The position numbers were made by a program, and so were the translations under genes. Positions 25,937-35,639 of a stretch of DNA of 37,863 nucleotides are shown piece by piece; the first letter of the stretch is position 1; each line of letters begins with the position of its first letter. Source of the stretch: Candidatus Anaerostipes avistercoris (lineage in GTDB: Bacteria; Bacillota; Clostridia; Lachnospirales; Lachnospiraceae); contig DWWD01000047.1 in NCBI GenBank assembly GCA_019119895.1, positions 1-37,863 of the forward strand, in the 5' to 3' direction. The notes beneath the pieces were generated by a model. That model did not search any database. It had not been told where the DNA came from and saw nothing but the letters and a program-made list of their open reading frames with translations.

Positions 25937-27283
25937 TTATTTAAATTCTTCTTTTGGAAAAACAACCGTGATTTTTGTCCCCTGATTCAGTTCGCTTTCC
26001 ACTTCAATGGATGCATGGTGATATTTCGCACCATGCTTTACAATGGAAAGTCCCAGACCGGATCCTTCTTTCTGGTTGGAATGACTTTTGTCCACACGAT
26101 AAAACCGTTCGAATACCCGGTCCACATCATCCTTCGGGATTCCGATTCCAGTATCTTCCACTACAACGGTCGGTTTATCATCCATGGTGATAATGGTAAC
26201 AACAACTTTTCCCTTCGGACGATTATACTTCACTGCATTCTCACAAATATTGAAAAACATTTCGTACAAAATCTGATAAACTCCGTATATCTTTGTGTGA
26301 ACGCCCCGTATATGGAATGTCACATCTTCTTTCTTCAGTTTGTGGTCCAGATCGGTTTTAATCTGAAACATCAGTTCATACAGATCTACGTCTTTCTTCT
26401 CAAGTTCTACCTGATTTTCGTCTAATCTTGATAATTTAATGATATCTTCGATCATGGAAATCAAACGTCTGGCCTCTTTGTAAATCGTACCGGAAAAGCG
26501 TTCCATATCTTCCGGTTTCACCAGTCCGTCCTTCATCAGCTCCGCATACCCGGATATCGTCGTCAGCGGCGTCTTCAGTTCATGAGAAACATTCGCCGAA
26601 AATTCCTTCCGCATGTTCTCAGCTTCCTTGATTTCCTCGATCTGATTCTGGATATCAATATTCTGCTGTTCAATCCTATCTAACAACGGCGTCAACTCAC
26701 TATATGTCTGGTTCTGCTTCGGATGAAGCAGATCAATCTGGTTAATCGGTTCCACAATACGGTTTGTAATGATTCCGGATAAAAGGATATCCAGAGCCAG
26801 AACGATCAGCAGCATAACAGATACTGCAGGCAGGAATCCCAGAACCTGGCGCAGCATCGTCTGCGTCTCTCTGGACAGCCGCAGCACTGTTCCGTCATTC
26901 AGCCGTACTGCATAATAATATGTCTGTTCATTCAGTGTATCCGAAATTCTTGTATCTTCGCCGGTACCCTCTTCCAACGCTTCCTGGATTTCCTTGCGGT
27001 TTAAGTGATTTCCCATGGTGCTTTCTTCTCCTTCACTGTCATAAATCACTTTACCGGAAGTGTCGACCCAGGTAATTCTGCTGACTGTAATATCCTTGTA
27101 AGCATCCAAATCCTGCCTGTCGTGGAGATTCAGGGATGTTGCCATGTATCCTGCTTCATCCTGTATTCCAGATTCAATCTGCTGGGTATACTGAAAATAA
27201 GCGATAAACGCCAGTATAACGGTTGTGATTAAGACTGCAGCAAAAGACACTAATACCATTTTGCTGAAAATCTTACGTTTCAT
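25937..27283 (-). CDS. phoR: PhoR-type phosphate sensor histidine kinase
   Basis: A 448-residue membrane kinase. Membrane segments lie near 8-30 and 148-175, bracketing an external domain of about 115 residues. A linker coiled coil follows (about 195-225), then HisKA with the phosphorylated H234 in FSANVSHELKTPLTTISGYAEL, and an HATPase domain with the N box FNICENAVKY, G1 VVEDTGIGIP, F box FERFYRVD and G2 GSGLGLSIVKH. No separate PAS domain is evident. The start overlaps the phoB stop by four bases (ATGA), with GGAGG inside phoB. Last gene of the operon; with the adjacent PstSCAB-PhoU it should sense phosphate state through the transporter. Confidence 0.9.
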   Translation of the reverse strand: MKRKIFSKMVLVSFAAVLITTVILAFIAYFQYTQQIESGIQDEAGYMATSLNLHDRQDLDAYKDITVSRITWVDTSGKVIYDSEGEESTMGNHLNRKEIQEALEEGTGEDTRISDTLNEQTYYYAVRLNDGTVLRLSRETQTMLRQVLGFLPAVSVMLLIVLALDILLSGIITNRIVEPINQIDLLHPKQNQTYSELTPLLDRIEQQNIDIQNQIEEIKEAENMRKEFSANVSHELKTPLTTISGYAELMKDGLVKPEDMERFSGTIYKEARRLISMIEDIIKLSRLDENQVELEKKDVDLYELMFQIKTDLDHKLKKEDVTFHIRGVHTKIYGVYQILYEMFFNICENAVKYNRPKGKVVVTIITMDDKPTVVVEDTGIGIPKDDVDRVFERFYRVDKSHSNQKEGSGLGLSIVKHGAKYHHASIEVESELNQGTKITVVFPKEEFK

Positions 27284-27954
27284 TCATTTCCTCCAATACG
27301 ATAACCAATTCCACGTACAGTCTCAATTAAACTTCCGCATTCCCCAAGCTTCTGCCGCAGTGACCGGATATGGACGTCCACAGTCCTTGTCTCTCCGTCA
27401 AAGTCATACCCCCATATGTTGGTAAGCAGCTGGTCTCTGTTCAGTACATTGCCCTTGCTTTCCACCAGGAGGCACAAAAGCTTAAATTCTTTGTTCGTCA
27501 GCGTCACTGACTGATCTTTTACTTTTACCTTATGTTTGTTCGGATAAATCCGCAGATCTCCAATCTGCAGCTCATCTCTGGATTCTTTCTTTGAACGGCG
27601 AAGCACTGCCTTGACTCTGGAAACCAGTTCCATCATACCAAACGGCTTCGTGACATAATCGTCCGCGCCGCTGTCAAGACCAAGCACCTTATCGTACTCT
27701 GTGCCCTTTGCCGTCATAATAATAATTGGCAGCTCTTTTGTTGCTGACTTTCCACGAAGTTTTCCCAGTATTGACATTCCGTCTTCTCCCGGCAGCATAA
27801 TATCAAGCAATACTAATTCAGGCATAACTCCTTCACTCATGGCCTCCATAAACTGCGTTCCGTCCTCGAAGCCTTTTGCTTCGAACCCGGTGCTCTGCAG
27901 CGTGTAGGTCACAAGTTCTCTTATATTCGGATCGTCTTCTACAACAAATATCAC
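27280..27954 (-). CDS. phoB: PhoB-type response regulator
   Basis: A 224-residue OmpR/PhoB regulator. The receiver domain has acidic residues in VVEDDPN, phospho-acceptor D51 in LVLLDIMLPGEDG, a T in IIMTAKG and K in VTKPFG. The C-terminal winged helix shows LTNKEFKLLCLL and TRTVDVHIRSLRQKLG. It should bind Pho boxes such as those before pstS when phosphorylated by PhoR. The start codon is GTG (27954), after AAAGGAGG, overlapping the phoU stop by four bases. Confidence 0.92.
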   Translation of the reverse strand: MIFVVEDDPNIRELVTYTLQSTGFEAKGFEDGTQFMEAMSEGVMPELVLLDIMLPGEDGMSILGKLRGKSATKELPIIIMTAKGTEYDKVLGLDSGADDYVTKPFGMMELVSRVKAVLRRSKKESRDELQIGDLRIYPNKHKVKVKDQSVTLTNKEFKLLCLLVESKGNVLNRDQLLTNIWGYDFDGETRTVDVHIRSLRQKLGECGSLIETVRGIGYRIGGNE

Positions 27955-28604
27955 AAGCTTCCTCCTTTATATTCCCCGGTAATCGCGTATTCTACCCACT
28001 CAGCAATGTTGCTTGCATGGTCTCCGATACGCTCAAAATATTTTGCGATCATAAGAATCGCTACACATTCTTCTCCTCTTTCAGGCTCATTATGAATCAT
28101 CTCAATGACTTCTTTCTTAACCTGACTGAACAGATCATCTACAAGATCATCCTGTTCGATGACTTCGCGTGCAAGGCCAAGATTTTCTTTTACAAAAGCC
28201 TTAACGCTGCGGCTTACCATGTCAATGGTAGCCTGAGACATCTTTTCAAGGTGTGTATTTTCTATCTGAGCCGGCACTGCAGAATCCTTCTTAACGATTC
28301 CAATGATATCCGCTGCCTGATCTCCGATTCGTTCCATATCAGATACCATCTTAAGCGCAGAAGAAATCACTCGCAGGTCTGTCGCTACAGGCTGCTGCTG
28401 GAGCAGCAGTTTCATACAAATACGCTCGATGTCTCTCTCTTTGTGATTGATCTCTTCTTCCATTCCTTTTGCGTCTTCGATGAGTTCTTTGTCTCTCGTA
28501 GCTACAACCTTCGCTGCTGCTGTGATCATTTCTTCGCAAAGAGCTCCCATGTCCACCATTTCCTGGTTCAGACGCATCAGCTGTCTGTCGAATCGATTTC
28601 TCAT
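27951..28604 (-). CDS. phoU: Phosphate uptake/signalling regulator PhoU
   Basis: A 217-residue all-helical protein made of two PhoU repeats. Each repeat has the metal-binding signature: ERIGDQAADI in the first and ERIGDHASNI in the second. PhoU couples PstSCAB activity to PhoR and limits phosphate uptake. The start is ATG 28604, behind GGGAGG and one base after the pstB stop; an in-frame ATG at 28688 lies inside pstB and is rejected. Confidence 0.95.
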   Translation of the reverse strand: MRNRFDRQLMRLNQEMVDMGALCEEMITAAAKVVATRDKELIEDAKGMEEEINHKERDIERICMKLLLQQQPVATDLRVISSALKMVSDMERIGDQAADIIGIVKKDSAVPAQIENTHLEKMSQATIDMVSRSVKAFVKENLGLAREVIEQDDLVDDLFSQVKKEVIEMIHNEPERGEECVAILMIAKYFERIGDHASNIAEWVEYAITGEYKGGSL

Positions 28605-28605
28605 A

Positions 28606-29358
28606 TCAACCAAACCTCCCTGTAATATAGTCTTCTGTTCGTTTATCCTGAGGCATAGAGAACAGGTCGTTAGATTTTCCGAACTCAACCATCTCTCCTA
28701 ACAGGAAAAATGCTGTTCTGTCAGAAATTCTGACTGCCTGCTGCATATTATGAGTTACCATGATGATGGTATACTTTGATTTCAATTCTACCGCAAGATC
28801 TTCGATTTTGGAAGTAGAAATTGGATCAAGGGCAGATGTCGGCTCATCCATCAGCAGAACTTCCGGCTCCACTGCCAGTGCTCTTGCGATACAGAGACGC
28901 TGCTGCTGTCCTCCGGAAAGTCCGAGAGCGCTTTTCTTCAGACGGTCTTTTAATTCATCCCAGATGGCTGCACTTCTCAGAGATTTCTCAACAATCTCAT
29001 CCAGCTGTGATTTGTTATGAATTCCGTGAGTTCTCGGTCCGTACGCAATGTTGTCATATACGCTCATTGGGAACGGATTCGGTTTCTGGAATACCATTCC
29101 GACACGTTTTCTTAACAGATTGACATCCATGTCTCCATAGATATCTTCTCCGTCCAAAGTTACTTTTCCGGTAATCTTACATCCTTCTACCAGATCATTC
29201 ATACGGTTTAAGGATTTTAACAGCGTGGATTTACCACATCCGGAAGGTCCGATAAATGCTGTGATTTCATGTTCCGGAAGATCCAGGTTAATATCTTTTA
29301 ATGCTTTAAATTTTCCATAATATAAATCTAAATTATCGATTTTAAACTTTGTTCCCAT
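28606..29358 (-). CDS. pstB: Phosphate ABC transporter ATPase PstB
   Basis: A 250-residue ATPase. Walker A is [11 protein letters not shown], signature LSGGQQQR, Walker [13 protein letters not shown], switch VTHNMQQA. The insert [19 protein letters not shown] and [20 protein letters not shown] are diagnostic for PstB among ABC ATPases. It starts six bases after pstA, and its stop is almost contiguous with the phoU start. Confidence 0.97.
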
Positions 29359-29364
29359 TTCATT

Positions 29365-30267
29365 TTACCCTTTCGTGATTCGTTTTGCAATAAATGAAGA
29401 AACTGCATTAATCAGCAATACTGTAATCAGCAGGACAACTGCTGTTGCGTACGCCTGATTAATATGAAGTCCCTCACAAGATAAGGTATACATATGAACT
29501 GCTAATGTACGTCCGGATCCCATAATATTGGAAGGAATTTCTGCTACAGTACCTGCTGTATACATTAATGCTGCCGTTTCTCCTACGACACGTCCGATTG
29601 CCAGGATGATTCCTGATAAGATTCCCGGAACCGCAGATGGAAGCACGATACGGAATACAGTACGAAGTTTTCCGGCTCCCAGTCCGAAACTTCCTTCTCT
29701 GTAAGAATCCGGTACGGATTTTAATGCTTCCTCACTGGTACGCATGATCAGCGGAAGGATCATGATCGCCATGGTTGCCGCACCGGATAAGATAGATAAT
29801 CCCCAGCCAAGAGCGCCGACGAAAAACAACATACCGAATAATCCATATACAATAGAAGGAATACCCTGAAGAGTTTCTGCCGTAATTCTTACAAGATCCA
29901 CAATTTTATTTCCGCGTTTTGCATATTCCACCAGATAGATAGAAGCAAAAATTCCCAATGGAACTGCAAATAAAAGTGATAAACCTGTCATAATCAATGT
30001 ATTAATAATCGCAGGGAACATAGATACGTTTTCTGTTGTATATGTTACATCAAATAAATCACTTGTTAAATTCGGAATACCGTTTACCAGAATGTATACA
30101 ATCAAGAAGAATAATACAACTACTGTAATGAGCATTGCCGCATTCACAAGCAGCCATAAAACAAAAGAAAGCGGTGTTCTTTTGTAAGATTTCATTTTCT
30201 GACCAAACGTTACTTTATTGATTCCCTGAATATCTTCTGTTTTCTCCATAGTTTTTACAGCCTCCAT
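29365..30267 (-). CDS. pstA: Phosphate ABC transporter permease PstA
   Basis: A 300-residue membrane subunit with about six hydrophobic segments. PstA traits: TLIMTGLSLLFAVPLGIFAS, ETLQGIPSIVYGLFGM, and the EAA loop region SYREGSFGLGAGKLRTVFRI. It has a hydrophilic N-terminal extension of about 25 residues before the first membrane helix. Its start lies one base after pstC, with an AAGGAG site inside pstC. Confidence 0.95.
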   Translation of the reverse strand: MEAVKTMEKTEDIQGINKVTFGQKMKSYKRTPLSFVLWLLVNAAMLITVVVLFFLIVYILVNGIPNLTSDLFDVTYTTENVSMFPAIINTLIMTGLSLLFAVPLGIFASIYLVEYAKRGNKIVDLVRITAETLQGIPSIVYGLFGMLFFVGALGWGLSILSGAATMAIMILPLIMRTSEEALKSVPDSYREGSFGLGAGKLRTVFRIVLPSAVPGILSGIILAIGRVVGETAALMYTAGTVAEIPSNIMGSGRTLAVHMYTLSCEGLHINQAYATAVVLLITVLLINAVSSFIAKRITKG

Positions 30268-30268
30268 C

Positions 30269-31120
30269 TTAAATATTCTCCTTCTTCTTTAATGCTGCAA
30301 AGCAGAGATTAATCAGCAGGATAAATACAAACAATACAACTGCTGTTGCGATCAAAGCCTCTCTGTGGAGATCTGTCGCATATCCCATTTCCAATACGAT
30401 ATTGGAGGTCAGTGTTCTGACTCCGTTGAAAAGTCCTGATGGAACGACTGCCTGGTTTCCGGCAACCATTACAACCGCCATGGTCTCACCAATGGCACGT
30501 CCGATTCCCAGAACGACTCCTGCCAGGATTCCTGATTTTGCTGCCGGCAGTACTGCGAAAAATACGCTTCTTTCATGGCTTGCTCCCAGTCCGAGAGATC
30601 CTTCATAATAACTGTCCGGCACGGCACGAATCGCGCTCTCTGATACTTCTACGATGGTTGGCAGGATCATGATGCCCAGAAGAATCGATGCAGTAAACAA
30701 ACTGTTTCCCGTACCTCCAAACATGTTTCTGAATAATGGAACCAAAACAACCATTCCGAAGAAACCATATACTACAGAAGGGATTCCGGCAAGAAGCCCA
30801 ACCGCAGGTTTTACAATTTTGTAAACTTTATCGTTACAGAATCTAGCCATATATACTGCCGCAAGAATTCCGATTGGTACTCCCACAATGATTGCTCCCG
30901 CAGTAACGTAAATACTTCCTAAAATCATAGGGAAGATGCCAAAGATCTCAACCTTTGGCATCCATATTCTTCCGGTAATAAATTCTCCAAGTCCGATTTT
31001 CCCTATGGTAGGAATTCCGTTTATAAATAAGAAAGCACAAATTAAAATAACTGCCAGAATGGAAGCACATGCTGCGATCAAAAAGACCACACTCATAATC
31101 TGTTCTTTATATTTTCTCAT
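30269..31120 (-). CDS. pstC: Phosphate ABC transporter permease PstC
   Basis: A 283-residue membrane partner of PstA. Recognisable segments: MILGSIYVTAGAIIVGVPIG, LLAGIPSVVYGFFGMVVLVP, YYEGSLGLGASHERSVFFAV (EAA loop) and GIGRAIGETMAVVMVAGN. It begins 28 bases after pstS with a GGTGAGG site and runs straight into pstA. Confidence 0.95.
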   Translation of the reverse strand: MRKYKEQIMSVVFLIAACASILAVILICAFLFINGIPTIGKIGLGEFITGRIWMPKVEIFGIFPMILGSIYVTAGAIIVGVPIGILAAVYMARFCNDKVYKIVKPAVGLLAGIPSVVYGFFGMVVLVPLFRNMFGGTGNSLFTASILLGIMILPTIVEVSESAIRAVPDSYYEGSLGLGASHERSVFFAVLPAAKSGILAGVVLGIGRAIGETMAVVMVAGNQAVVPSGLFNGVRTLTSNIVLEMGYATDLHREALIATAVVLFVFILLINLCFAALKKKENI

Positions 31121-31148: not shown

Positions 31149-32024
31149 CTATTTGATATCACCCCAGGATGTTGTCTCACCAGTAAAGATTGATTTTACC
31201 TGATCACTTGAAAGCTCATCAACATCTCTGTCTTTGTTTACGATAACCGCAATACCATCCTGTGCGATTGCTGTTGCTGTAACGCCTTTGGATTTTTCAC
31301 TGTCAGCCAGGTCACGGGAAGCCATTCCAATGTCACACACACCATCGATTGCATTGTTTACACCAGTTGTAGAATCACTCTGCTGTACTTCGATTGTTAC
31401 TTTGTCATTTGCTTTCTCATAAGCTTCTTTTAATTTCTCCATAACCGGTGTAACAGAAGAAGATCCGGAAACAACAACTTTTCCTTCTGCTCCGTTAGAC
31501 TTAAATGCTTCTGCATTCTCATCAACACTGATATATCCGTTATCTTCTACAATCTGCTGTCCTTCTTTACTCATGATGTAGTTTTCAAAATCCTGTGCAG
31601 CATCGCTTAATCCGTCTTTTGTTACGATGTTAAACGGACGAACAACTTTGTAAGATCCATTCTTAACATTTTCTGCAGATGCTTCTGCTCCGTCAATCTT
31701 CAAAGCTTTAACCGTATCATTTAAAGATCCTAAAGATATGTATCCGATTGCTGCGTCGTTTTCAGCGATTGTTGTCATCATAACAGATGTAGAGTTTGTA
31801 ATCTGAGCGGACTGTGTTGTCATATCCACTTTTTTTCCGTCCTGCTCTTCTTCAATTCCGAACAGCTCAACGAAAGCTCCTCTTGTTCCAGATCCATCTT
31901 CTCTGGAAACAACTGCGATTTCATCATTATTGCTGCCTGAATCGTTACTTCCTCCGCTGCATCCTGTCAGAAGGCTTGCTGCTGCTACGGTGGCTAATGC
32001 TAAAGTCAAAAATCTTTTTCTCAT
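31149..32024 (-). CDS. pstS: Phosphate-binding lipoprotein PstS, circularly permuted motif order
   Basis: A 291-residue solute-binding lipoprotein; lipobox LTGC with C22. All PstS ligand-site blocks are present but in unusual order. The mature protein opens with EIAVVSREDGSGTRGAF (SREDGSGTR at 40-48), then GYISLGSL, VRPFNIVTKDG and a YIMSKEGQQIV helix. Only after residue 181 come the blocks that normally open PstS: VVVSGSSSVTPVMEKL (186-193), QQSDSTTG, DIGMASRDL (231-239), DGIAVIVN and LSSDQVKSIFTG, ending in TSWGDIK. In E. coli-type PstS the SWxD(I/V) segment is followed directly by the (S/R)xDGSGT segment, so the C and N termini here mark the permutation point. It is first in the operon with Pho boxes upstream, so a working role is likely. 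Confidence 0.88.
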   Translation of the reverse strand: MRKRFLTLALATVAAASLLTGCSGGSNDSGSNNDEIAVVSREDGSGTRGAFVELFGIEEEQDGKKVDMTTQSAQITNSTSVMMTTIAENDAAIGYISLGSLNDTVKALKIDGAEASAENVKNGSYKVVRPFNIVTKDGLSDAAQDFENYIMSKEGQQIVEDNGYISVDENAEAFKSNGAEGKVVVSGSSSVTPVMEKLKEAYEKANDKVTIEVQQSDSTTGVNNAIDGVCDIGMASRDLADSEKSKGVTATAIAQDGIAVIVNKDRDVDELSSDQVKSIFTGETTSWGDIK

Positions 32025-32227: not shown

Positions 32228-33487
32228 TCATTCCACGACTTTTCCATCGCAGATGGTATATTTTACTTTTCCTTTGAGTTTCCATCCGGTAAACGGAGAA
32301 TTGCTTGCTTTGGATTTGTAATCTTTTACAATCCATTCCTCCTCGGGATCAAAGATCACCAGATCCGCCGGGCATCCTTCCTGAAGGCGTCCCTGAGGCA
32401 GATGATATAATTTTGCCGGATTGAGAGTCATCTTCTCCAGAAGTTCCATCATGGACAGATATCCCTTATCCACCAGTTCGGTAATTCCAAGACCGAGTGA
32501 TGTCTCCAGACCTGTAATACCGCTTGGGGCTTCTGCAAGGCTCTTTTCCTTCTCTTCTTTCGAATGAGGCGCATGATCAGTAGCTATGATCTCGATGGTG
32601 CCCTCCTGAAGGCCTTTGATGATACGCATCCTGTCTTCCTCGGTACGAAGAGGAGGGTTCATTCTTGCCAGAGTTCCGTATTTCAAAACCGCTTCCTCCG
32701 TCAGTGTAAAATGATGAGGCGAAGCTTCCGCCGTCACATTGGCACCTTTTTCTTTTGCCACTTTTACATACTCTACTGCCTGGGCGGAACTGATATGCTG
32801 GATATCCACCGATGCTCCGGTCTCCAGCGCCAGCCGGCAGTCTCTCTTCACCATAACGGCTTCCGCCAGATATGACGCGCCGCCGTATCCCAGCTGCTCT
32901 GAAACCTTTCCCTGATTAACTCCCGGCTGTTTGATATAAGCCGGATCTTCCTCATGAAGGCTGATCGGAACATCCAGTTCCTTTGCCTTCTCCATGGCTT
33001 TCCGAACAATATCTTCATCCATCAGCGGAATCCCGTCATCGGTAAATCCTCTCACGCCTGCCTTATACAGGGCGTCCATATCCACCAGTTCTTTCCCCTG
33101 GAATCCTTTGGATACCGCGGCTGCCTGAAGAACTTTGACCGGAAGTTTTTCACAACGTTTCGCGATTTCCTCATAGATTTCCACAGAATCCACTACCGGT
33201 TTTGTATTTGCCATGCAGACAACCGTCGTAAACCCTCCTGCTGCCGCCGCTGCTGCTCCGGTTGTCAGATCTTCCTTATAAGTAAAGCCCGGATCGCGGA
33301 AATGAACATGGACATCAATCAGTCCCGGAGCCACAATACTGCCCCCGGCGTCGATGACCTGACAGTCATCCGCCGCGTCTTCTACCTTTCCGATTTTTAT
33401 AATCCGGTTTCCATCCAGCAGAACATCTCCTGTCTGATCAAATCCCGTCTCCGGGTCCATAACCCTTCCATTTCGAATCCAAATCAT
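32228..33487 (-). CDS. pyrC: Dihydroorotase (class I PyrC)
   Basis: About 419 residues; cyclises carbamoyl aspartate to dihydroorotate in pyrimidine synthesis. Zinc ligands H60 and H62 are in DVHVHFRDPG; the TDHAPHSKEEK block holds the catalytic aspartate; ANTKPV and ASPHHFTLTEE are also family motifs. The sequence encodes two adjacent ATGs (33490 and 33487); the second has better spacing from GGAGG and is chosen. The gene starts about 16 bases after ppk1 and is alone, without other pyr genes. Confidence 0.93.
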   Translation of the reverse strand: MIWIRNGRVMDPETGFDQTGDVLLDGNRIIKIGKVEDAADDCQVIDAGGSIVAPGLIDVHVHFRDPGFTYKEDLTTGAAAAAAGGFTTVVCMANTKPVVDSVEIYEEIAKRCEKLPVKVLQAAAVSKGFQGKELVDMDALYKAGVRGFTDDGIPLMDEDIVRKAMEKAKELDVPISLHEEDPAYIKQPGVNQGKVSEQLGYGGASYLAEAVMVKRDCRLALETGASVDIQHISSAQAVEYVKVAKEKGANVTAEASPHHFTLTEEAVLKYGTLARMNPPLRTEEDRMRIIKGLQEGTIEIIATDHAPHSKEEKEKSLAEAPSGITGLETSLGLGITELVDKGYLSMMELLEKMTLNPAKLYHLPQGRLQEGCPADLVIFDPEEEWIVKDYKSKASNSPFTGWKLKGKVKYTICDGKVVE

Positions 33488-33506
33488 CATACAGCCTCCT
33501 TATTCT

Positions 33507-35639
33507 TTATTTTGTATGTTTCTGAAAGATTCTCCGGCCTACAGAAGCAAAGAATCCTCTTTTCTTCTGTTTCGGTTTTCTCTGGTGCCGTCTCGCGTCT
33601 CTCATAAAATAATTCTGGGAACTTAACGGTTCGTCTCCTCTCTTCCTTTTGGAAACATATTCGCCGCTGGACAAGAGTCTGGTTGCCTGTACATTATCTT
33701 TCTTCAGGATTTCAATCATTTCCGCCAGCCGCTCTCTGAGAGCCGGATCATAAATCGGGCAGGCTACCTCAACTCTTCGCTTGGTATTGCGCGTCATCAT
33801 GTCTGCGGAAGAAATAAAGATTTCCAGATCCTGTCCGGAACCAAAACTGTAAATCCTTGAATGTTCGAGAAATCTTCCTACAATGCTTTCCACCTGAATG
33901 TTTTCTGTTTTGCCCGGGATTCCCGGACGGATGCAGCAGATTCCGCGGACCAGCAGGAAAATCGGCACTCCCGCGCAGGATGCCTCCGCCAGAGCGTCGA
34001 TGATCTGACGGTCTGTCAAAGAATTCATCTTCATAAAGATTCCGCATGGCTGGAAGCTCTCTGCCTTCATCTTCTCCCGGTGTATGTATTTGATGATATT
34101 ATTCTTAAGGCTGGTCGGCGCCACCAGCAGATGCTCATACTCACCGTCCAGATTAAAAACCGAAATATTATGGAAAAACCTGGTGGCATCCTGACCAATA
34201 GCTTTGGAGGCCGTCAGCAGACTTAAATCCGTGTAGATCTTCGACGTGCTTTCGTTATAATTTCCTGTTCCAATCTGGGTAATATAATAAATACCCCTGC
34301 TGTTCTTCTTGGTAATCAGGCAGACTTTGGAATGTACTTTATAGTCCTCGATACCGTACATTACTTTGCAGCCTGCCTCTTCCAGCACCTCTGAATAATT
34401 AATATTGTTCTGCTCGTCAAATCGGGCCCGCAGTTCCATCAGCACAATGACTTCTTTTCCGTTTTCCGCAGCCTCGCATAAGTATTTTACAATCTTTGCC
34501 TGTTTTGCCAGACGGTAAATCGTGATTTTAATCGATATCGTTTCCCGGTCTCTGGCGCTCTCTTTCAAAAGCTGTACAAAACTGTCAATGCTCTCAAATG
34601 GAAAAGAAAGCAGCTTATCTCCCTGGAGCACCTGTTTCGTCACTGACTCTCCCGGAATCAGATCACGGTTCAGGGCCGGCTCAAACGGTTTATAACTTCC
34701 TTTCTTTTTCTGTTCCTCCGGCATTCTGTCCGTCAGCTGATATACATATTTCATATCCAGAGGAGTCAGGCTCTTAAATACTTCTTTCCTGGAGATATCC
34801 AGTTTCTTCATTAAATATTTCTCGATCCACTTGCTTCCTCTGCGGTAAAATTCCAGACGGACAGGATGCAGTCTGCTCCGAAGCTTAATGATCTGGCGCA
34901 TATGTTCCCTGTAGTCGTCTGTATTTTCATAAATTTCATCATCCGGATTAATATCCGCACTTCTGGTCACACAGAGAATGGTTTTGTCCTCCACTGTATA
35001 ATTGCGGAACAGCATATCACAGTACTGGGCGATGATATCCTCCAGAAGTACGAATCTGGTTCCCTCTCCTTCCAGAAAAACCATTCGATCCATGTCTTTC
35101 GGCATAGCGATGATCCCAAAAGATTCTTTATCTTTCTTTTTCAGCAGGAGTCCGATATGTATCACCTTATTGGGGATATGAGGAAACGGATGCTGTTTTC
35201 CGATGACAATCGGAGAAAGCACCGGCAGAAGCATCACTTCAAAATAATTTTTCAGATACTGCTTCTCCTCTATACTGAGATCTGCAAATGCGCACTGCTT
35301 GATTCCCTGCTTTTCCAGTTCTTCCGAAACATCCGCAAAGATCTGATCCCTCAGTCGGTACAGGGGATCCATCCTTTCCGCTATCTTTGTCAGCTGCTCA
35401 TCCGGTGTCAGATTGGAACGGATGTCGTGATGATGGTCATGGATGATACTCATTTCATGAATGCTCCCCACTCTGACCATATAAAACTCATCCAGGTTGT
35501 TTGTAAATATTTCCAGAAATTTTAATCGTTCAAAAATCGGGACGGATTTTTTTCCCGCCTCCCTTAAAACTCTCTCATTAAATTTCAGCCAGGACAATTC
35601 TCTGTCCTGTGTGTAAGAATAATCGTAGTTCTTACCCAT
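33507..35639 (-). CDS. ppk1: Polyphosphate kinase 1
   Basis: A 710-residue enzyme that reversibly moves the gamma phosphate of ATP onto polyphosphate. Domains: N-terminal helical part (RELSWLKFNERVL, NNLDEFYMVRV), head domain, and two phospholipase-D-like C domains. The autophosphorylated histidine is in DYKVHSKVCLIT, and the second active-site histidine is in RFLEHSRIYSFG. IGTGNYNESTSKIYTDL is a diagnostic stretch. The C-terminal 60 residues are lysine/arginine-rich and extend past the usual end. The start has a GGAGG site. Its position next to pst-pho links phosphate import and storage, although a Pho box in front of it was not found. Confidence 0.95.
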   Translation of the reverse strand: MGKNYDYSYTQDRELSWLKFNERVLREAGKKSVPIFERLKFLEIFTNNLDEFYMVRVGSIHEMSIIHDHHHDIRSNLTPDEQLTKIAERMDPLYRLRDQIFADVSEELEKQGIKQCAFADLSIEEKQYLKNYFEVMLLPVLSPIVIGKQHPFPHIPNKVIHIGLLLKKKDKESFGIIAMPKDMDRMVFLEGEGTRFVLLEDIIAQYCDMLFRNYTVEDKTILCVTRSADINPDDEIYENTDDYREHMRQIIKLRSRLHPVRLEFYRRGSKWIEKYLMKKLDISRKEVFKSLTPLDMKYVYQLTDRMPEEQKKKGSYKPFEPALNRDLIPGESVTKQVLQGDKLLSFPFESIDSFVQLLKESARDRETISIKITIYRLAKQAKIVKYLCEAAENGKEVIVLMELRARFDEQNNINYSEVLEEAGCKVMYGIEDYKVHSKVCLITKKNSRGIYYITQIGTGNYNESTSKIYTDLSLLTASKAIGQDATRFFHNISVFNLDGEYEHLLVAPTSLKNNIIKYIHREKMKAESFQPCGIFMKMNSLTDRQIIDALAEASCAGVPIFLLVRGICCIRPGIPGKTENIQVESIVGRFLEHSRIYSFGSGQDLEIFISSADMMTRNTKRRVEVACPIYDPALRERLAEMIEILKKDNVQATRLLSSGEYVSKRKRGDEPLSSQNYFMRDARRHQRKPKQKKRGFFASVGRRIFQKHTK

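Follow-up and report, generated by a model that had tools for sequence, protein, structure and literature searches.

Canonical PstS proteins (TIGR02136 / PF12849; PDB 4GD5, 4Q8R, and 1TWY) share with the protein described here two homologous halves, the phosphate blocks, and the setting of a pst operon, but carry the two halves in the opposite order. A closer relative is PstS2 of Streptococcus pneumoniae (SP_2084; PDB 4H1X, released 2012-10-17), which is likewise permuted and colinear with our protein from residue 29 to residue 291 (E 4.5e-64), with 46% identity across 257 columns, although it belongs to another genus and another operon. This colinearity over the full length, together with the common fold, assigns our protein to a permuted PstS subfamily. 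The pneumococcal Pst1 and Pst2 systems have been called evolutionarily distinct in a paper whose main text contains no word beginning with "permut" (PMC4913102). Another naturally circularly permuted, lipid-anchored binding protein is TpMglB-2 of Treponema pallidum, for which a "Type Ic / Cluster Bc" has been proposed; according to the accessible part of its description, ligand binding by this sugar-binding protein is accompanied by a change of shape (PMC4990184). The same part of that source gives it a Type I fold whose strand order is altered in the N lobe only and which needs a fourth crossover, whereas in our protein whole PstS halves are swapped. The best sequence and fold matches of the latter are PstS proteins, which places it outside Type Ic / Cluster Bc. 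As far as found in a literature search that covered open-access work, mostly titles and abstracts, with subscription journals mostly outside, natural permutation of PstS is undescribed. The permuted form of PstS is genuine and widespread, and apparently unremarked; the solved structure 4H1X made its order public in 2012. Given this structure and the wide occurrence documented below, the novelty is lower than an initial annotation of this DNA had hoped.

The stretch of DNA analyzed as a whole, hereafter the window, comprises 37,863 nucleotides of Candidatus Anaerostipes avistercoris (contig DWWD01000047.1), and its relevant genes are collected in table 1. The pstS product bears an LTGC motif at Cys22 that we take, by eye, to be a lipobox, and is thus presumably a secreted lipoprotein. 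The SREDGSGTR block occupies residues 40-48, SGSSSVTP begins at residue 186, and SWGDIK forms the C-terminus at residue 291, all in agreement with the initial annotation. Naming the halves B (window residues 34-172) and A (179-291), canonical PstS proteins run A-B and the window protein runs B-A. The ligand blocks had been described as complete, and both phosphate-binding blocks are indeed present in the sequence. Arg41, Ser45, Gly46, Thr47, and Ser188-190 are invariant in all 43 permuted proteins aligned, a subset of those fetched. Moreover, Arg41 aligns with chain residue Arg125 of Clostridium perfringens PstS 4q8r, a Pi-binding residue according to the part of the source available to us (PMC12421899). 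No second, canonical PstS turned up in the window genome: apart from four weak hits (E 2e-4 to 6.3), a protein search and a PF12849 search gave no other PF12849 protein or full-length match.

Table 1. Positions of the genes and protein segments discussed in the text (window coordinates unless a locus or accession is given).
Feature	Position	Strand	Remarks
pstS, permuted phosphate-binding lipoprotein	31149..32024	(-)	291 aa plus stop
Residues 1-22: signal peptide, lipobox, and anchor Cys22	31959..32024	(-)	motif; pLDDT < 50 over residues 1-31
Tether, residues 23-33, anchor to B half	31926..31958	(-)	
B half, residues 34-172	31509..31925	(-)	canonical C-terminal half (SREDGSGTR ... GYISV)
Linker, residues 173-178 (approximate)	31491..31508	(-)	old C-terminus to old N-terminus
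A half, residues 179-291	31152..31490	(-)	canonical N-terminal half (SGSSSVTP ... SWGDIK)
pstC permease	30269..31120	(-)	TIGR02138 277.3 bits, cut-off 196.45
pstA permease	29365..30267	(-)	TIGR00974 276.6 bits, cut-off 193.45
pstB ATPase	28606..29358	(-)	TIGR00972 418.8 bits, cut-off 343.2
phoU	27951..28688	(-)	start codon uncertain; TIGR02135 200.7 bits, cut-off 130.25
PhoB/PhoP-like response regulator	27280..27954	(-)	best TIGR02154 237.4 bits, below cut-off 296.2
PhoR/PnpS-like histidine kinase	25937..27283	(-)	best NF046044 246.7 bits, below cut-off 400
Dihydroorotase	32228-33490	(-)	directly upstream of pstS
Polyphosphate kinase	33507-35639	(-)	directly upstream of pstS, with dihydroorotase
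Diverged PstS-like lipoprotein gene	L203:5019-5987		
Adjoining Na/Pi symporter	L203:3283-5001		
Phage-collection records, "Bacteriophage sp."	MT837962, MT837530, MT838145, MT838544, MT837061		

Canonical PstS proteins of the PDB (4q8r and 4gd5) align with the window protein in two separate stretches whose order is reversed (E 1.2e-50 and 6.1e-50, respectively). When the mature chain of the window protein is rotated at 175/176 and aligned globally with 41 canonical PstS proteins, the median score rises from 254 to 445 and the median number of identities from 60 to 100, and the rotated chain outscores the native order in every one of these 41 comparisons; random cut points yield a mean rotated score of 352. 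With a subset of 12 of these canonical proteins as references, the best cut points lie at 174-180, with 167-169 nearly as good. Thus, the swapped order exceeds what chance would give. The PstS halves of the window protein are circularly permuted, as the initial annotation had proposed.

Among PDB entries, 4H1X best matches the structure predicted for the window protein (mean pLDDT 88.2, pTM 0.79), with TM 0.85/0.96 and rmsd 1.5 across 257 columns. For the canonical 1twy and 4gd5 chains, a good match is confined to 91-139 columns, and the canonical 4pqj spans 270 columns with a poor fit (TM 0.34, rmsd 10.1). The expectation that the fold could close with new termini is supported by a confident model and a colinear solved structure. 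The place of those termini is another matter: they had been put in the segment that links the two lobes, and instead a loop of about three residues inside lobe 2, past the hinge, has been opened. In the model, a long crossing strand (248-262), a helix (273-280), and then a short turn lead up to the cut, and the strand 37-41 comes after it. In canonical numbering, the accessible part of PMC12421899 puts the hinge at 102-117 and the motif arginine at position 169, so that the cut falls roughly 50 residues beyond the hinge. The strand order of the model and these two positions both locate the cut inside lobe 2 and outside the hinge. The A-B junction of canonical proteins measures 3 residues in 45 of 48 ORFs; by the same ruler, the linker measures 4-7 residues in 159 of 160 permuted ORFs, a number that includes repeat fetches of one region. 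Relative to the C-terminus of the window protein, the ends of all 160 fall between -4 and +7 residues. From the topology, both termini, and hence the lipid anchor, would have shifted from lobe 1 to lobe 2. The length of the lipid tether was dropped as a difference between the two forms, given that the spacers from the cysteine to the first strand have similar medians (18 in permuted and 21 in canonical proteins, with a lipobox-like match in 144 of 160 and 44 of 48 ORFs, respectively).

In our view, the product of the gene is very probably the lipoprotein that binds phosphate for a PstSCAB importer, as a member of a subfamily derived from one ancient circular permutation. The former C-terminus would have been joined to the former N-terminus through the short linker, and the opening of the loop in lobe 2 would leave a chain that runs through the B half and then the A half. 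As the sequence, the model, and the colinear 4H1X show, the phosphate blocks and the two-lobed fold are kept. With both termini and the lipid anchor predicted on lobe 2, not lobe 1, the protein would most likely bind Pi and hand it to PstCA as an ordinary PstS does, tethered from the other lobe.

The pstC gene begins 28 bases past the pstS stop, and is followed by pstA, pstB, phoU, and the genes of a two-component pair. Across loci, the identity of PstC to that of the window ranges from 61% to 100% where PstS is permuted (147 loci) and from 34% to 52% where it is canonical or fused (50 loci), both counts including repeat fetches. In a quick PstC+PstA tree, calculated without a mixture model and with warnings of long branches meeting, the 144 permuted of 178 loci form one clan with a support of 100 and imply one change between forms. 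One clan and one change are also found for PstB (85 permuted of 104 loci, support 84). In contrast, the PhoU tree (83 permuted of 98 loci) shows six changes between forms, at least four of them forced by starred branches; this contrast draws on 13 canonical and 2 fused loci, with long branches and possible paralogs among the rows. In the sample, and judging by the trees, PstC/PstA and PstB have stayed with permuted PstS and PhoU has been exchanged. Since PstCAB cosegregates with permuted PstS whereas PhoU does not, the pattern suggests that the permuted protein and its permease are a matched working set. The cosegregation with PstC/PstA also fits, without proving coupling, the altered docking that the initial annotation had envisaged.

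Nevertheless, cosegregation of PstCAB could stem from joint inheritance of the operon, with a functionally silent permutation in a set of genes that is inherited or transferred as a unit. We regard this as a serious possibility, if not quite a probable one. The usual order pstS-pstC-pstA-pstB-phoU occurs with both permuted and canonical PstS, and the whole permuted set is borne on plasmids in Treponema saccharophilum and Monoglobus pectinilyticus; transfer as a unit is thus real. Additionally, the permuted TpMglB-2 still binds its ligand and changes shape, according to the accessible part of PMC4990184. Against an explanation by joint inheritance only stands PhoU, which is usually part of the same operon and yet underwent six changes, compared with one each for PstC+PstA and PstB. 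The pairing of permuted PstS with one permease clan provides a test case for how the position of anchor and termini enters into the docking of binding proteins.

The number of permutation events was approached with trees in which both halves had first been put back into one common order; the sample was assembled by similarity to the window protein, such that remote independent permutations would escape it. In a tree of 147 rows (102 permuted after thinning, 41 canonical, and 4 copies from tandem fusions), the permuted proteins occupy one side with a support of 69, and L198, L208, and a diverged side branch join at an unresolved fork. A tree of 90 rows was thinned further, with nine locus prefixes dropped (eight long or remote canonical ones and L165, which has an in-frame stop). 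Here, the 53 permuted rows, side branch included, form one clan (99/95), recovered in 98% of 200 bootstraps that had not quite settled and that the program rates as rough. Trees of a single half, each built from 138 rows with 101 permuted ones among them, again give one permuted clan, with a support of 86 for the A half and 99 for the B half. One event therefore suffices to account for the whole-protein, A-half, and B-half trees, and a single permutation appears to be the simplest reading for the sampled proteins. That the chain was permuted several times independently at the same place seems to us highly improbable. Such a history would agree with the strong divergence of the side branch (31-47% identity per half to the window protein) and with the support of 69 and the unresolved fork in the full set, but the clan of the 90-row tree takes in the side branch, each half on its own concurs, and the linker keeps to 4-7 residues in all but one of the ORFs. 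As for polarity, the canonical order is probably the older form, because it occurs in distant groups represented in the PDB, the tree itself being unrooted.

How a single permutation may have come about is illustrated by a second set of loci. The initial annotation had derived the swapped order from a tandem duplication followed by loss of both outer halves, and the intermediate that this route predicts can exist, since single A-B-A-B ORFs, equivalent to two canonical PstS proteins head to tail, were found in two genomes of one genus (G323 and G343). At these loci (L131/L132; also L191 and L192) the open frames span 544 and 531 residues and lie upstream of pstC. The fusions resemble the window protein in containing the B-A order internally, but differ in consisting of two similar canonical copies in one ORF. 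In the 147-row tree they group as a separate clan within the canonical proteins and are not sister to the permuted clan. They thus represent a parallel case and were ruled out as its ancestor, whereas a tandem duplication as the source of the permutation is still plausible by analogy.

The same order is common in the window's family, where a search had been proposed at the outset: with one genome taken per genus, 54 of 150 have a permuted match through both halves, two of them with the side-branch form only (G481 and G572) and two with a stop inside the match (G552 and G465). A draw from the phylum, in which up to six candidates were scored per genome, gave at least 18 genomes with the permuted form among 398. 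Carriers include Anaerostipes, Blautia, Coprococcus, Streptococcus, bins labeled as Phascolarctobacterium, and Eubacterium barkeri. Outside Bacillota, the form is carried by Treponema saccharophilum, whose plasmid pTS2 (NZ_AP025290.1, L277:5947-9965) combines a permuted pstS with pstC, pstA, pstB, and phoU. The PstS of pTS2 is 59.6% identical to the window protein, and this copy suggests transfer between phyla. In Anaerostipes butyraticus (L035) the order and the downstream pstC are the same, at 93% identity. We found nothing in favor of a misassembly or of a truncated piece of some longer gene, and both can be dismissed, because the order recurs in many other assemblies, is present in the solved 4H1X, and belongs here to a frame with an intact lipobox, a stop codon, and an adjacent pstC.

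PstS ranks among the binding proteins studied most thoroughly, yet its permuted form, carried by roughly one in three of the family's sampled genera, is partly hidden by annotation. The window protein passes PF12849 (PBP_like_2) with 120.9 bits in two stretches (cut-off 27), but on TIGR02136 it reaches 181.2 bits in two swapped stretches and remains below the cut-off of 206.6. So do all five further permuted proteins scored, some of them as translations short of a few terminal residues, and the six together span 179.5-200 bits. Five of five canonical PstS proteins lie above the cut-off (226.3-282.3 bits), while three side-branch proteins score 135.5-154.9 bits. The swapped order is the likely cause of the low scores. 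Furthermore, in two RefSeq plasmid records the neighboring pstC, pstA, and pstB bear their names, and the permuted protein is entered only as "substrate-binding domain-containing protein". In consequence of such scores and generic names, surveys of pstS by name can miss the permuted forms.

The side branch is a diverged permuted clan with a support of 100 in the 147-row tree, composed of L196, L197, L200, L201, L203, and the second copy of L199; L202 also belongs to it but, being nearly identical to L203, was removed when the tree was thinned. In six of these seven loci (five if the near-identical pair is counted once) the lipoprotein gene adjoins that of a Na/Pi symporter. The exception is the L199 copy, which has a stop inside the match and lies in a pst region near a PhoR-like gene. 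The six partner symporters belong to one particular subfamily, have 570-590 residues and a PhoU domain (PF02690, PF01895), and share 53-100% identity with the L203 symporter. A polyphosphate kinase gene, identified as such in L203, comes next in both L202 and L203. The side-branch proteins retain the Pi-binding blocks. A PstS-like neighbor is absent from all 27 other Na/Pi symporter loci fetched (32-35% identity to the symporter of L203), within flanks of at most about 1.5 kb. By eye, G018 has a canonical PstS gene at a distance of about 5 kb from a symporter gene, and G024 has one some 3.5 kb away from a symporter fragment, which counts against an exclusive link. The window genome has symporters and lacks a second PstS-like protein. 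From adjacency, which is the evidence here, we put forward as a speculative and rather unlikely scenario that the permuted fold was recruited a second time, outside ABC transport, into binding-protein-assisted Na/Pi symporters. The shift of the anchor to lobe 2 may be what fits the lipoprotein to its partner here as well as in the ABC importer. No paper on a Na/Pi cotransporter sharing one operon with PstS was found in a search of open-access literature, with subscription journals mostly outside. To our knowledge, binding-protein-assisted Na/Pi symporters have not been reported.

Additional permuted copies were observed elsewhere. L199, L205, and L206 each have a second permuted PstS gene within the same pst region, that of L199 being the copy with an internal stop. 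Upstream of the permuted pstS of L079 lies a diverged frame (L079:2782-3591) in which BLAST recognizes the A half alone; it is maybe a fast-evolving permuted paralog. Finally, a phage collection contains five matches to permuted PstS with 88% coverage (table 1). These records are unannotated human fecal contigs of 5-8 kb, and are perhaps bacterial.
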